Part shown: one piece after another, positions 8,202 to 12,980 of the stretch | How the letters are laid out: every line of letters begins with the position of its first letter | Position numbering within the stretch: the stretch's first letter is position 1 | Assembly (NCBI GenBank): GCA_020622105.1 | Contig: JAHRYP010000004.1 | Coordinates: 1-64,000, forward strand | Origin: Methylotenera sp. | GTDB taxonomy: Bacteria; Pseudomonadota; Gammaproteobacteria; Burkholderiales; Methylophilaceae | Length of the DNA stretch: 64,000 nucleotides | Direction: 5' to 3' | The notes under the pieces: model-generated | The model's input: only the letters and a program-made list of their open reading frames with translations | What the model was told of the DNA's origin: nothing | Database searches by the model: none | Made by a program: the position numbers and the translations under genes

Positions 8202-9248
8202 TTATGTAAACAACTCGCCCTCAACAATACCGACCTGCGCCACCTGATGCACAGCATCAACAAACTCTGCACTTTCATGCAGCGTATCCATTGTAGGTGG
8301 ATGTTTATGGCCATGCATACGCGCTAAACGACTTAAACTCTGTGCCGACATCTGCCATTTAAGGTTTTCCAGCAACTCATCTGCCATTGCCGGCTGATTG
8401 CACAGCAGCACCATATCACAACCGGCCGTTAAAGCAGCCAGCGCACGTGTAGTGACATCACCGCCTGCTGTTGCTGCTTCCATACTTAAGTCATCACTGA
8501 ATATCACGCCATTAAACCCTAAACGCTCGCGCAATATCTTTTGTAACCAGCGTGAAGAAAAACCGGCCGGCTTATCATCAACTTTAGGGTAAATGACATG
8601 TGCCGGCATAATGGCAGGAATGCCATCATCAATCAGCATTCTGAACGGCTGCATATCATGCTGTGCAATCTGGTCAAACTCGCGGTCATCTACCGGCATA
8701 CTCACGTGAGAATCCGCTACTACAAAGCCATGACCTGGGAAGTGTTTGCCTACAGCTGCCATACCGGCCTTTTTCAAACCCTGCATGAGCGCGAATGCCA
8801 GGTCATTAATCGCCTGCGGATTTAAATGAAAGGCACGGTCGCCGATCACCAGACTGTCGCCATAGTCCATATCAAGCACCGGCGTAAAACTGAAATCAAC
8901 GCCATGCGCACGTAATTCGGCAGCTAAAATCCAGCCAGCCTCCTTGGCAAGCTCTTTGGCTTTTTTAGGATTCTGATCCCAAATCTTGCCAAATTCCCGC
9001 ATCGGCGGAATTTTAGTAAAGCCTTCTCTAAAGCGCTGCACACGACCACCTTCATGGTCTACCGCAATCAGCAGCGGCGGCTGACGCACAGCATGAATAC
9101 TGGCCGTCAACGCTTTCAGCTGCGCGTTATTTTCATAATTGCGCTTGAACAAAATCACACCACCGACTAACGGATGCTGCAAACGGCGTATGTCATCGGT
9201 AGTAAGCTCTGTGCCTACAACGTCCAACATCACTGGACCTAAACTCAT
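8202..9248 (-). CDS. nagZ: Beta-N-acetylhexosaminidase NagZ
   Basis: Cytoplasmic glycoside hydrolase family 3 enzyme that removes GlcNAc from anhydro-muropeptides during cell-wall recycling. Residues show [11 protein letters not shown] (63-73), KHFPGHG (168-174), the His-containing ADSHVSMP loop (about 178-185), and the nucleophile region FSDDLSM with Asp252. At 348 residues it is the usual single-domain NagZ. Its ATG overlaps the stop of the upstream permease by 4 bases, so translation is coupled. It is the last gene of the binding protein-YkuD-permease-permease operon, which suggests that the transporter brings in its substrates. Confidence 0.94.
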
Positions 9249-10039
9249 GGAATATCCCTTCTCACATCTAATCTATCGCGCAAATAATCGCCACCCAGAT
9301 TAATTGCCAAAATCAAACTCATTAAACACAAACCTACAATCAATACATAATGCGGCGCAACCAGCATAAATCTGACTGCATCACGCAGCATCGCACCCCA
9401 TGAGGCATTGGGTGCCTGTATGCCCAAACCTAAAAATGAAAGGCTAGCCTCGGCAATCATAACGCTGGCAAGACTATATGCAGCCTCCACGACCAAAATC
9501 GAGGCCATGAGCGGCAGTATATGTCTAAACAACAATCGCGGTACACCCGCACCTAACGACTCCGCTGCCTGCACATGCTGGCGATTACGCAAACTCATGG
9601 TTTGACCACGCGTCAATCGAGCATAACTCACCCAGCCGGTTAAACATAAAGCCAATATCAAGTTACCCAAGCCTGGCCCCAGCACAGCAGCAAAAGCGAT
9701 TGCCAGCAGAATACCGGGGAATGCCAGAAAAATATCGGTAATCTGCATGAGTACTGAATCTATCTTGCCGCCATAAAACCCAGCCAGCATGCCAACAGAA
9801 ACGCCAACAACCATCGTGATAACCGTCACAGTCAAAGCAACCAGCACTGACATCTTTACGCCACTTAACACGCGCGCCAGAATATCACGGCCCAGATCAT
9901 CAGCACCGAACCAATGCTGCACACTGGGGCCTTGCAAAACCATGTTCAGATCAATCAGATTTGGATCCAGCCTGAACAGATAACCGATAATGACTGCCAA
10001 CACCCAAAAACCCAATATTGAATAAGAAAACCACTTCAT
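9245..10039 (-). CDS. Peptide-type ABC transporter permease (DppC/OppC-like)
   Basis: A 264-residue inner-membrane permease with about six hydrophobic helices and the conserved cytoplasmic EAA loop ([18 protein letters not shown]) that docks the ATPase. The periplasmic [18 protein letters not shown] motif near the N-terminus is typical of the DppC/OppC/YejE group. It starts 2 bases after the stop of the partner permease and overlaps nagZ. No ATPase gene is found anywhere in this operon. Confidence 0.92.
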
Positions 10040-10041
10040 AT

Positions 10042-10962
10042 TCAGGCTACGCGCACTCTGGGGTCAGCCAGCTTATACAATAAATCAGTGAATAAATTCA
10101 CCACCACATAACTTAATGCAACGATCAGCACACATGCCTGCGTCACCGGGTAATCGCGTTTCTCAATACTTTCTACCAATAGTCTGCCTATGCCATCCCA
10201 ACTGAATATCGTTTCGGTAATCACCGCACCAGCCAGCAAACTACCCATCTGCAAACCGACAATCGTGATAATGGGCAACAATGCTGCACGCAGGGCATGA
10301 CGCAGAATGACCACTCGCTCACTCAAGCCCTTGGCACGCGCAGTACGAATATAATCATCATTCAGCACCTCGAGCAGGCTGGTGCGCGTCATACGCGTAA
10401 GAATTGCACTCAAACCAAAGCCCAAAGTGGCGGCAGGCAGGATAATTGAGGCGCCAGATTCCATACCGCTTACAGGTAGCCAGCCCAACCACACGGCAAA
10501 TATCAGCATTAACACCGGTCCTAACCAGAAAGCTGGCATCGCAGATAACCTGACTGAAACAACCGTCACAAGAATATCCTGCCAGCGCCCGGCTTTAAGT
10601 GCGCTGTAAATACCTAATGGAATACCTACAAAAAGCCCGATCATCAGCGCCAATAAAGCCAGTTTAAGTGTCGCCGGGTAACGCGTGTTAATCAGCTCGG
10701 CAATGGAGGCTTTGGTATGTATGGATCGTCCAAAATCGCCATGGGCGAGTTTATTGAGATAAGTACCGAATTGCTGCAATAAAGGCTGGTTTAAACCCAA
10801 TTCAGTCCGCAGTGCATCACGGTCCGCGCTGCTGGCAGATTCGCCCAGCATCACCTCAACCGGATCACCGGGTACCAGATGAATGAGTAAAAAAGTGAGC
10901 AGCAATACGCCGAAAATAACGGTAAAAAAGCTAGTGAGGCGTTTAATCAAAAACATAAACAA
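10042..10962 (-). CDS. Peptide-type ABC transporter permease (DppB/OppB-like)
   Basis: A 306-residue partner permease. The N-terminus (RLTSFFTVIFGVLLLTFLL, then LVPGDPVE) is characteristic of the DppB/OppB/YejB family, and the EAA loop reads RTARAKGLSERVVILRHALR. A C-terminal TDLLYKLADPRVR segment closes the family signature. It lies between the YkuD-fold gene (58 bases upstream) and the second permease (2 bases downstream). The substrate cannot be read from the permease; context points to cell-wall peptides. Confidence 0.92.
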   Translation of the reverse strand: MFMFLIKRLTSFFTVIFGVLLLTFLLIHLVPGDPVEVMLGESASSADRDALRTELGLNQPLLQQFGTYLNKLAHGDFGRSIHTKASIAELINTRYPATLKLALLALMIGLFVGIPLGIYSALKAGRWQDILVTVVSVRLSAMPAFWLGPVLMLIFAVWLGWLPVSGMESGASIILPAATLGFGLSAILTRMTRTSLLEVLNDDYIRTARAKGLSERVVILRHALRAALLPIITIVGLQMGSLLAGAVITETIFSWDGIGRLLVESIEKRDYPVTQACVLIVALSYVVVNLFTDLLYKLADPRVRVA

Positions 10963-11020
10963 CTCACAATTGCATCATTTCCGCGTGGGCAGGAATGATG
11001 ATGAAGAGAATTTTTACACT

Positions 11021-11500
11021 TCATTCAACAATCACCACTGGCGTACCAGCCTCTACCAGATCAAACAATTCCATGACATCCTGATTACGCATACGCACGC
11101 AGCCATGTGAACACGGCTGGCCCATCGGCTCGGTGTCGGGTGTGCCGTGAATATAAATATAACGCTGCATGCTATCCACATTACCCAATCGATTCTTTCC
11201 GACCTCAGTACCAGACAGCCACAATATGCGCGTCAAAATCCAGTCACGTTGCGGGTATTGCGCTATGAGCTCCGGCGACAGAATTTCACCTGTAGGCCGA
11301 CGGCCGACAAATACTGTATTCAACGGAGCACCCGCACCAATTTTGGCACGTACAACATGTTTACCCAATGGTGTGCGACCGCTGTCTTTTTCACAGCCAA
11401 CACCATTGGCCGCAGTAGATATGTAATACTTGGCTTTAACTGCGCCAAAGTCATCAAGCAGAGTCAGCATCTGGGCTGTAATTGAAATTTCAATGTGCAT
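11021..11500 (-). CDS. YkuD-fold L,D-transpeptidase/L,D-carboxypeptidase, no signal peptide
   Basis: A 159-residue single YkuD domain with the complete active site: IHGT (117-120) and SHGCVRM (131-137), catalytic Cys134. Unlike classic periplasmic L,D-transpeptidases it begins directly with the domain (MHIEISITAQML) and has no signal peptide or membrane segment, so it should be cytoplasmic. Leaderless YkuD proteins such as Acinetobacter ElsL act as L,D-carboxypeptidases in peptidoglycan recycling, trimming tetrapeptides to tripeptides. It overlaps the end of the binding-protein gene by 11 bases and sits in one operon with nagZ, which favours the recycling role. The biochemical assignment is inference. 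Confidence 0.9.
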   Translation of the reverse strand: MHIEISITAQMLTLLDDFGAVKAKYYISTAANGVGCEKDSGRTPLGKHVVRAKIGAGAPLNTVFVGRRPTGEILSPELIAQYPQRDWILTRILWLSGTEVGKNRLGNVDSMQRYIYIHGTPDTEPMGQPCSHGCVRMRNQDVMELFDLVEAGTPVVIVE

Positions 11501-12980
11501 AGCTGTTTATTGTAGCCGACCTTTTAATTGTCGCTAAATCATCCCAGTTTCCATCAGGTTTGGGGGTGTAATGAGTAATGTTTCTATTAAAAGCGGCAAA
11601 CTGCGCCTCATACCACAGTGGAATATATGGCAACTGCTGATGAATACGCGTTGTAACTGCAGGCCAGTCTTCTGCTAATAGCAACGTATCCAGCTCGACA
11701 TCCACATAACGACCGCGGTTAAAACCATGGGGCGGAAACTGCTGCGAACCAAAAGCTTTGGTGTAAATTTCCGGGGTTTTAATCCCCACCCAAGTGAGTC
11801 CAAATAATTGAAAGTTACCTTTTTTAACCTCGTCAAAAAAGGTGCCCCAATCCAGACTACGAATTTCCAAGTCTATACCAGCCTTTGCCATCTGCGCCTG
11901 CAATATCGTTGCCAGCCTCACACGCTGCGCATCGGTTGATGTTTTATATACTAGTTTAAGCGGCAGCTGCACACCTGCTTCTATGAGCAGTTTTTTAGCA
12001 AGCTCAGGGTTATAGTCATAAGCAATCAGCTCGTTTCCGGCGTTGGTGTAGTGCTCGGGCGGCAATATGGCGCCAGCAACCCGTGTACTTTTCACCATCA
12101 CTTTTTCAATAATAGCCTGACGGTCAATTGCATGCGCAATCGCCATGCGCACCTGATGCTGCTTGAGCAAGGGATCTTGCATATTTAAACCGAGATAAGA
12201 AAAATTAGCGCCTTGAACAGTTTGAACCATGATTTCAGGTTTTGATTGCAGGTGTTTGACCAGCTCAGGCGGCAAATCACTCTGCAGTAAATCGGTTTCG
12301 CCGCGCAGCAGTTTCAGTACCCGCACCGTCGGGTCTTTCACCTCGGTAAATATAATCTGCTGTCCATCATGCACTCTTTTCAGCGTCAGTTTATTTTGCC
12401 AATGCTCGAAAGCCAGCGGGCCGCTGCCGATGGGATGATGCGAAAAGTCATGTTCCTTTTCGATGTAATCTTTAGGCAATATCCCCATGATCAACTTAGC
12501 TGCAAACTGCTTATCTGGCTGTTTCAATTGAAATATTACCAGATTCTCGTTTTTCACCTGGATTGAGGAGATATTGGAATACTCAGAGGTATGCGGTGAG
12601 TCTTTAAGTCCAACAATTGAATCATAAGTCGCTTTTACATCATCAGCAGTCAGTGTTTTGTGATGGTGAAAACGCGCAAACGGCTGCTTCATTATGAAAT
12701 GATATTCCCTCGGGCTTACCATCAGCCAGTTTGCTAACTTGGGTACAAGATTGGAAGTTTCATCAAAATCAACCAGCGACTGATAAATCAGACGATTAGC
12801 CCGTTCAGATGCTGCATCCGTAGCATAACGCGGATCTAAATTAATTGGCATCTGCGCCAAAGAGAAACGAATAGGTTCGGCCTGGTCGGATAGCTGGTTG
12901 GAACCGGATTGATTACAGCCGGATAGCGTTAGTACACAGGCTATCAGACAAGTAAGCACAATAGTATTGAATACTTTCAT
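11490..12980 (-). CDS. ABC transporter substrate-binding lipoprotein (peptide family 5)
   Basis: A 496-residue periplasmic binding protein of the SBP_bac_5 family (DppA/OppA/MppA relatives). The lipoprotein signal ends with LSGC (Cys22). The N-terminal lobe has the family's NLDPRYATDAASERANRLIY signature, and the C-terminal half has the FGLTWVGIK hinge region. It is the first gene of a five-gene operon with the YkuD enzyme, two permeases and nagZ. Related proteins bind oligopeptides or muropeptides; the latter fits the context. Its promoter region is shared with the divergent ccoN. Confidence 0.92.
   Translation of the reverse strand: MKVFNTIVLTCLIACVLTLSGCNQSGSNQLSDQAEPIRFSLAQMPINLDPRYATDAASERANRLIYQSLVDFDETSNLVPKLANWLMVSPREYHFIMKQPFARFHHHKTLTADDVKATYDSIVGLKDSPHTSEYSNISSIQVKNENLVIFQLKQPDKQFAAKLIMGILPKDYIEKEHDFSHHPIGSGPLAFEHWQNKLTLKRVHDGQQIIFTEVKDPTVRVLKLLRGETDLLQSDLPPELVKHLQSKPEIMVQTVQGANFSYLGLNMQDPLLKQHQVRMAIAHAIDRQAIIEKVMVKSTRVAGAILPPEHYTNAGNELIAYDYNPELAKKLLIEAGVQLPLKLVYKTSTDAQRVRLATILQAQMAKAGIDLEIRSLDWGTFFDEVKKGNFQLFGLTWVGIKTPEIYTKAFGSQQFPPHGFNRGRYVDVELDTLLLAEDWPAVTTRIHQQLPYIPLWYEAQFAAFNRNITHYTPKPDGNWDDLATIKRSATINSYAH

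Follow-up and report, generated by a model that had tools for sequence, protein, structure and literature searches.

Which transporter carries peptidoglycan fragments into the cytoplasm when AmpG, which textbooks give as the gate through which Gram-negative bacteria take up wall fragments, is missing, and can another gate work beside it? These questions are raised by five adjoining genes in a 64,000-nucleotide stretch of Methylotenera sp. (assembly GCA_020622105.1, contig JAHRYP010000004.1, positions 1 to 64,000; hereafter the window), which encode a substrate-binding lipoprotein (SBP), a YkuD-fold enzyme resembling ElsL, two permease subunits (PermB and PermC), and NagZ. A preliminary description of the window had proposed a muropeptide uptake and recycling system, and this candidacy is supported by the ElsL-like enzyme, by the recurrence of the operon, and by a link between the SBP and absence of AmpG in genomes that keep AmpD; transport itself is predicted. 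We consider it likely that the operon encodes an ATP-binding cassette (ABC) importer of fragments released in peptidoglycan turnover, along with two enzymes for their processing in the cytoplasm, and that it is partly interchangeable with AmpG.

The coordinates of the open reading frames agree with the tight leftward arrangement described earlier (Table 1): the SBP and YkuD frames overlap by 11 bases, YkuD and PermB are 58 bases apart, PermB and PermC 2 bases, and PermC overlaps NagZ by 4. Profile matches from Pfam and NCBIfam likewise agree with the identities given to the five products. With an SBP_bac_5 protein and two BPD_transp_1 permeases (Pfam), the locus has the binding protein and the permease pair of an Opp/Dpp-type importer, and, as had been noted, the list of open reading frames of the window contains no ATPase gene within the operon. 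The five-gene operon is real and not a product of chance, its order recurring in 14 of 17 Methylophilaceae loci (each at least 12 kb, from 16 genera).

Table 1. The five genes of the operon, with positions in the window, protein length in amino acids (aa), and Pfam match (GH3, glycoside hydrolase family 3).
Gene product	Position	Strand	Details
SBP, family-5 substrate-binding lipoprotein	11490..12980	-	496 aa; Pfam SBP_bac_5 1.3e-55
ElsL-like YkuD enzyme	11021..11500	-	159 aa; Pfam YkuD 4.6e-22
PermB, DppB-type permease subunit	10042..10962	-	306 aa, TTG start; BPD_transp_1 1.3e-42
PermC, DppC-type permease subunit	9245..10039	-	264 aa; BPD_transp_1 9.8e-26
NagZ, GH3 beta-N-acetylglucosaminidase	8202..9248	-	348 aa; Glyco_hydro_3 3e-82

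The distribution of the SBP was determined across the class Gammaproteobacteria in the GTDB sense, using 274 evenly drawn genomes (our own and 273 others) and a search profile built from 23 Methylophilaceae SBPs. Genomes counted as SBP-positive scored 333 to 621 bits, paralogues reaching at most 161 bits (G242); we added G233, in which the gene lies in two pieces, and G362, which is AmpG-positive and was counted on one 160-residue piece of 149 bits since its genus-mate G233 has the gene. A genome was AmpG-positive with any TIGR00901 match at E ≤1e-10 (211 genomes, 186 of them above the family cut-off). SBP orthologues were found in 86 of the 273 other genomes, and AmpG was absent from 45 of these (41 having both) versus 18 of the 187 genomes without the SBP (169 having AmpG), an odds ratio of 0.097 (p 5e-14). 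The link persisted with one genome per family (157 genomes, G164-G320), where AmpG was absent from 26 of 48 SBP carriers versus 11 of 109 others (p 9e-9). Of the 86 SBP genomes, 85 also have ElsL; within ElsL carriers, AmpG was absent from 44 of 85 with the SBP versus 4 of 120 without it (p 1e-16). ElsL itself was rejected as the driver of AmpG absence, ElsL alone versus AmpG giving p 0.87.

Altogether, 63 of the 274 genomes have no AmpG match, and 49 of these keep AmpD. Of the 45 AmpG-less SBP carriers, 43 (all except G221 and G353) have an AmpD score above the cut-off, versus 6 of the 18 genomes lacking both SBP and AmpG. Since AmpD acts on imported muropeptides, according to the available text of PMC9790009, AmpG-less carriers that keep it appear to import by a route other than AmpG. 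Incomplete genomes were judged insufficient as a cause of AmpG absence: when SBP carriers less than 90% complete or more than 5% contaminated were dropped, 35 without AmpG remained vs 36 with it. G284 and G216, both AmpG-less carriers, each consist of one contig with a completeness rating of 100%.

A tree built from 93 SBPs (78 from the class and 15 from Methylophilaceae, the latter forming one clade with support 97) requires no fewer than 15 changes of AmpG state; two of 80 fetched SBPs had no usable full-length frame and stand outside this tree. When all branches of a tree of ElsL and NagZ were used, including unsupported ones, a custom script drew 15 edge-disjoint pairs; AmpG changed opposite to the SBP in about 9.5 of them and in parallel with it in none (p about 0.002). 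These are trees of pathway genes rather than species trees, and we therefore treat the pair tests as secondary evidence.

The neighbourhood of the SBP was read in 80 of the 86 SBP-positive class genomes (all but G321, G295, G421, G261, G377, and G362). Downstream on the same strand, ElsL lies within 4 kb in 61 loci, PermB within 7.5 kb in 54, PermC within 8.5 kb in 53, and NagZ within 9 kb in 43; all four follow the SBP in 35. In nine genomes the permease pair is present with no ElsL adjoining. Where PermB is not adjacent, an orthologue (at least 375 bits) is encoded elsewhere in 24 of 26 genomes, the two misses being 78% and 75% complete; none of ten SBP-less controls reached the PermB range, their best permease scoring 216 bits. 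In four genomes (G184, G331, G216, and G210) the separated permeases lie directly behind ElsL. We also read 55 of the 120 ElsL carriers without SBP, picked among the best ElsL scores. NagZ follows ElsL on the same strand within about 2.3 kb in 41 of them, mostly directly behind, and PermB lies there in none of the 55. On contig C162 of genome G196 (from 9241 on, L314), AmpG, ElsL, and NagZ are consecutive, with AmpG in the SBP's usual place; AmpG neighbours of ElsL were looked for only with our genome's AmpG as query. The neighbourhoods depict an ElsL-NagZ pair as a site where a transporter can slot in, permeases and SBP in many genomes and AmpG in one.

The best NCBIfam match of the enzyme encoded behind the SBP, by a wide margin, is ElsL (NF040925; 1.9e-57, 193.6 bits, model positions 9-159 of 164). 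The SHGC motif (S131, H132, G133, and C134), with Cys134 as catalytic cysteine, is invariant in all 19 aligned sequences. A hydrophobic leader is absent by eye from the window protein; the starts of the aligned relatives, chosen by a script as those nearest to that of the window protein, add no independent evidence. An apparently leaderless YkuD protein is odd for an L,D-transpeptidase and fits a recycling enzyme. The match to ElsL runs nearly end to end, and the protein is predicted to belong to the cytoplasmic L,D-carboxypeptidases of recycling. In the available text of PMC8649774 and PMC9239154, ElsL (LdtK) of Acinetobacter is a cytoplasmic enzyme that fills the role of LdcA and cuts tetrapeptides, not pentapeptides, with orthologues reported from Betaproteobacteria. 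The window protein resembles that enzyme in its catalytic cysteine, its lack of a visible leader, and the span of its profile match. It differs in scoring under the curated cut-off of NF040925 (270 bits) and in its transporter operon, which does not figure in the available ElsL account (PMC8649774, PMC9239154). None of 121 relatives searched passes this cut-off either; given the score, we call the protein ElsL-like rather than ElsL. NagZ, with 510.5 bits to NF003740, passes the equivalog cut-off of 207, is leaderless by eye, and is the sole GH3 N-domain match in its genome.

The preliminary description asked whether the operon is conserved and whether it coincides with loss of AmpG. Conservation was confirmed: the operon is kept in Methylophilaceae and turns up again in many families elsewhere in the class. 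An SBP orthologue is present in 69 of 73 Methylophilaceae genomes, the gene being missing from G008, G039, and G062 (71-85% complete) and from G063 (1.3 Mb, rated 99%). Three of the 17 loci depart from the order SBP-ElsL-PermB-PermC-NagZ: the SBP is not beside the rest in L065, NagZ is not beside the rest in L067, and nothing of the operon but ElsL and NagZ is present in L073 (G063). In the rest of the order, an SBP orthologue was found in none of 48 genomes from 48 other families (best 104.5 bits). ElsL-like genes are widespread in the order, occurring in 100 of the 121 genomes searched, and in its other families the ElsL-like gene directly adjoins tadA in seven of eight short loci (L006, L011, L016, L024, L027, L028, and L030; not L002). 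In Methylophilaceae, a YccA-like gene and often tadA come after the recycling cluster. A queuosine-precursor transporter gene lies, by eye, between PermC (or ElsL) and NagZ in L062, L063, L064, L073, L075, and L077, and was verified by profile in L064 (TIGR00697, 105.8 vs 50.95 bits).

Coincidence with AmpG loss holds class-wide and fails close to home. Within the order the SBP was seen only in Methylophilaceae, and 71 of the 73 genomes of that family have an AmpG match, which in a few is no more than a fragment at the end of a contig; coincidence was rejected there, and in this family the operon would work beside AmpG. The absence of AmpG noted earlier is correct for the 64-kb window and does not extend to the genome, which has an AmpG-family gene on another contig (C47:32646-34079). 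With 433 bits, this gene is above the 350-bit subfamily cut-off of TIGR00901, and it falls short of the cut-offs of both stricter models, the AmpG equivalogs (452 bits against 656, and 430 against 756). Two AmpG versions occur in the genus, a longer one with an open frame of 505-529 aa and 431-446 bits (our genome, G007, G009, G015, G032, and G040) and a common one, mostly 417-476 aa and about 488-502 bits; this split was noticed at L059 6599-8107 and its relatives.

The SBP carries a lipobox-like LSGC with Cys22 and the motif WVGIKTPE, which in Methylophilaceae mostly reads WVG(I/L/V)(K/R)xP(D/E). Its AlphaFold2 model has a mean predicted local distance difference test score (pLDDT) of 94.5, and the best solved structural relatives of the model are general family-5 proteins. 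A comparison of the binding protein with MppA and YejA had been suggested. MppA is matched, distantly (4.9e-41 in sequence search; first at rank 22 among structural relatives, about 19-20% identity); on the Yej side, PermB scores 124.1 bits against the 445-bit cut-off of the YejB model PRK15133. In E. coli DppA, according to the available text of PMC12136057, D436, which holds the peptide amino group, captures the dipeptide together with R383, which holds the carboxylate. SBP residue 400 aligns in HMMER with position 436 of the DppA chain, D in wild type, and this Asp is not kept in the SBP family, where 73 of 74 rows have I, L, or V and one has T. A ligand without a free amino end, such as a peptide linked to N-acetylmuramic acid (MurNAc), would fit the aliphatic residue at this position. 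The R383 position is D or N in 70 of 74 rows; it adjoins an insertion, with an invariant Lys and a near-invariant Arg nearby, and so we draw no ligand claim from it.

Which ATPase would power such an importer? No Opp-type ATPase was overlooked within the window's operon, and a missing ATPase close by was rejected for our genome, whose two Opp-type ATPase domain matches form one adjacent DppD-DppF-like pair on contig C41 (L066 7937-9647). The ATPase genes that the preliminary description left to be located thus have a candidate on another contig, and this unlinked pair probably supplies the ATPases of the importer. Its neighbours are hisS on one side and, on the other, a tetratricopeptide-type gene with bamB behind it, and neither an SBP gene nor a permease gene adjoins the pair; hisS also adjoins the ATPase pair in four of seven short loci of other Methylophilaceae genomes (L052-L055). 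An Opp-type ATPase domain match is present in 43 of the 45 AmpG-less carriers, and 30 of the 45 have exactly two. In 20 ATPase loci read from 19 genomes, one frame usually encodes both halves, and in 19 of the loci a DppC-like permease belonging to a different operon adjoins. An MltD-like gene lies near the Opp-type ATPase operon in five of these 20 loci of AmpG-less genomes (L267, L271, L272, L274, and L277). Contig C6 of our genome (L058 6448-12007) carries a second family-5 SBP with a DppB/DppC-like pair and a fabI-like gene, also without ATPase; 26 bases upstream of this SBP is an MltD-related lytic transglycosylase (311 bits, under the 508 cut-off), and the set is a candidate for a second importer of wall fragments. 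One ATPase pair shared by two permease sets is the simplest reading. A precedent is found in the available text of PMC5736914, where Borrelia has five binding proteins, two permeases, and one ATPase pair.

From the observed gene content, recurring order, and distribution, we infer import, its cargo, and its use of an ATPase as follows. The fragments that the lipoprotein SBP would bind in the periplasm are most likely peptides attached to (anhydro)MurNAc, in other words muropeptides, and not free peptides. Transfer across the membrane would fall to PermB and PermC, driven by a DppD-DppF pair whose genes lie elsewhere and which another peptide transporter would share. Once the fragments are in the cytoplasm, NagZ would take off N-acetylglucosamine (GlcNAc) and the ElsL-like enzyme would trim the tetrapeptide to a tripeptide. 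AmpD, where kept, and, from general knowledge of the pathway, Mpl would then complete recycling. The operon may replace AmpG in many genomes of the class and would work beside it in Methylophilaceae. With some hesitation, we lean toward a broader view in which a Dpp-like SBP and permeases, placed in an old ElsL-NagZ operon and using a shared ATPase, form a third, as yet undescribed type of muropeptide importer that has repeatedly relieved AmpG across the class.

Several observations weigh against this interpretation. AmpG is also present in 41 of the 86 other SBP-positive class genomes and in nearly all Methylophilaceae, so the operon is not a strict AmpG replacement. Independent pairs on well-supported branches are few and not significant (three on the ElsL tree of 115 genomes, two on the ElsL and NagZ tree of 73 genomes). 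Downstream of the SBP, ElsL is lacking in 19 of 80 loci, PermB in 26, and NagZ in 37, some loci being cut by contig ends. The ElsL-like protein misses its curated cut-off, and its neighbours in Methylophilaceae, among them the queuosine-precursor transporter, the YccA-like gene, and tadA, mean that the cluster is not purely a cell-wall one. The DppD-DppF pair was assigned by elimination, as the only Opp-type pair in our genome, and an Opp-type ATPase domain match is absent from two of the 45 AmpG-less carriers, G233 (78% complete) and G359 (99%).

The operon might instead import free murein peptides, the tri- and tetrapeptides released by periplasmic amidases, as MppA-OppBCDF does in E. coli, with ElsL trimming the tetrapeptide and NagZ a neighbour from the same pathway that does not act on the cargo. 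The SBP does fall in the peptide-binding group, with MppA among its matches, ElsL works on the peptide part, and coexistence with AmpG in Methylophilaceae would suit a peptide-specific complement. However, where DppA has the Asp that grips the amino group, the SBP family has I, L, or V (a comparison with DppA, not MppA), and free peptides alone leave both AmpD in 43 of 45 AmpG-less carriers and NagZ in the operon unexplained; we regard this alternative as rather unlikely. A general importer of dipeptides, nickel, or other small molecules, to which NagZ and ElsL became neighbours by accident of operon history, would accord with PermB, which passes the cut-off of Opp2B, a model named nickel ABC transporter permease (365.9 bits vs 350), and with the top NCBIfam scores of the SBP, to NikA and DppA models. 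Yet these scores are far under the cut-offs (103.8/600, 102.2/393, and 89.9/1005, the NikA equivalog cut-off being missed with 102.2 of 393 bits), the gene order recurs in many families, and the SBP is linked to AmpG absence, which makes an importer of this kind highly improbable.

A different ABC system, whose SBP has 740 aa and whose ATPase is fused, could be the real muropeptide importer of AmpG-less genomes, the operon being merely correlated with it. This system occurs in 110 of the 274 class genomes at E 1e-60, co-occurs with our SBP (odds ratio 6.3), and is the commonest operon beside Opp-type ATPases in the loci read; an MltD-like gene lies near an Opp-type ATPase operon in 5 of 20 loci, and YejBEF-YepA of Agrobacterium offers a precedent in the available text of PMC9790009. 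Its own association with AmpG absence (odds ratio 0.48, p 0.013) nevertheless vanishes within SBP-positive (odds ratio 1.7, p 0.35) and SBP-negative genomes (odds ratio 0.94, p 1), and it was rejected as the driver on this ground. The link between the SBP and AmpG absence, by contrast, persists both with the 740-aa-SBP system (p 1e-5) and without it (p 3e-8), and our genome has no match to that system at E 1e-60. We consider it very improbable, and retain a muropeptide importer encoded by the operon as the preferred reading.

If the operon is the gate in AmpG-less genomes, this would explain how most of them recycle their wall and name the genes behind import, and methylotrophs such as Methylotenera would be an example of bacteria that seem to have both gates. 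AmpG is also where the signal that induces AmpC-type resistance starts (available text of PMC9790009; also general knowledge). Among the open-licence PMC papers listed as matches, none was seen to describe this operon. Muropeptide ABC importers are already known as a kind; the SBP family, the operon, and its distribution appear to be new.

Like AmpG, the operon would serve import of muropeptides at the inner membrane; AmpG is a single protein of the major facilitator superfamily (MFS), whereas an ABC system is encoded here. MppA-OppBCDF is the murein tripeptide importer of E. coli, in which the SBP uses an ATPase encoded elsewhere. The system described here would share with it the character of an ABC importer for wall peptides whose SBP depends on a remote ATPase, and it differs in that the SBP has permeases of its own and is only distantly related in fold. 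MppA is also mentioned in the available text of PMC10924461. The closest parallel is YejBEF-YepA, the muropeptide ABC importer of Agrobacterium, whose YepA is reported only in Alphaproteobacteria in the available text of PMC9790009, and which came from the same argument, AmpD kept without AmpG pointing to another import route. Like YejBEF-YepA, the system described here would be a peptide-type ABC importer that stands in for AmpG where AmpD and NagZ are kept, with the SBP setting specificity (PMC9790009, available text, for Agrobacterium). They differ in that PermB is nearer to Dpp/Nik-like permeases than to YejB, and in that the operon here is clustered with ElsL and NagZ and its ATPase is unlinked. 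If our reading is true, YejBEF-YepA and this operon stand for two families of ABC muropeptide importers.

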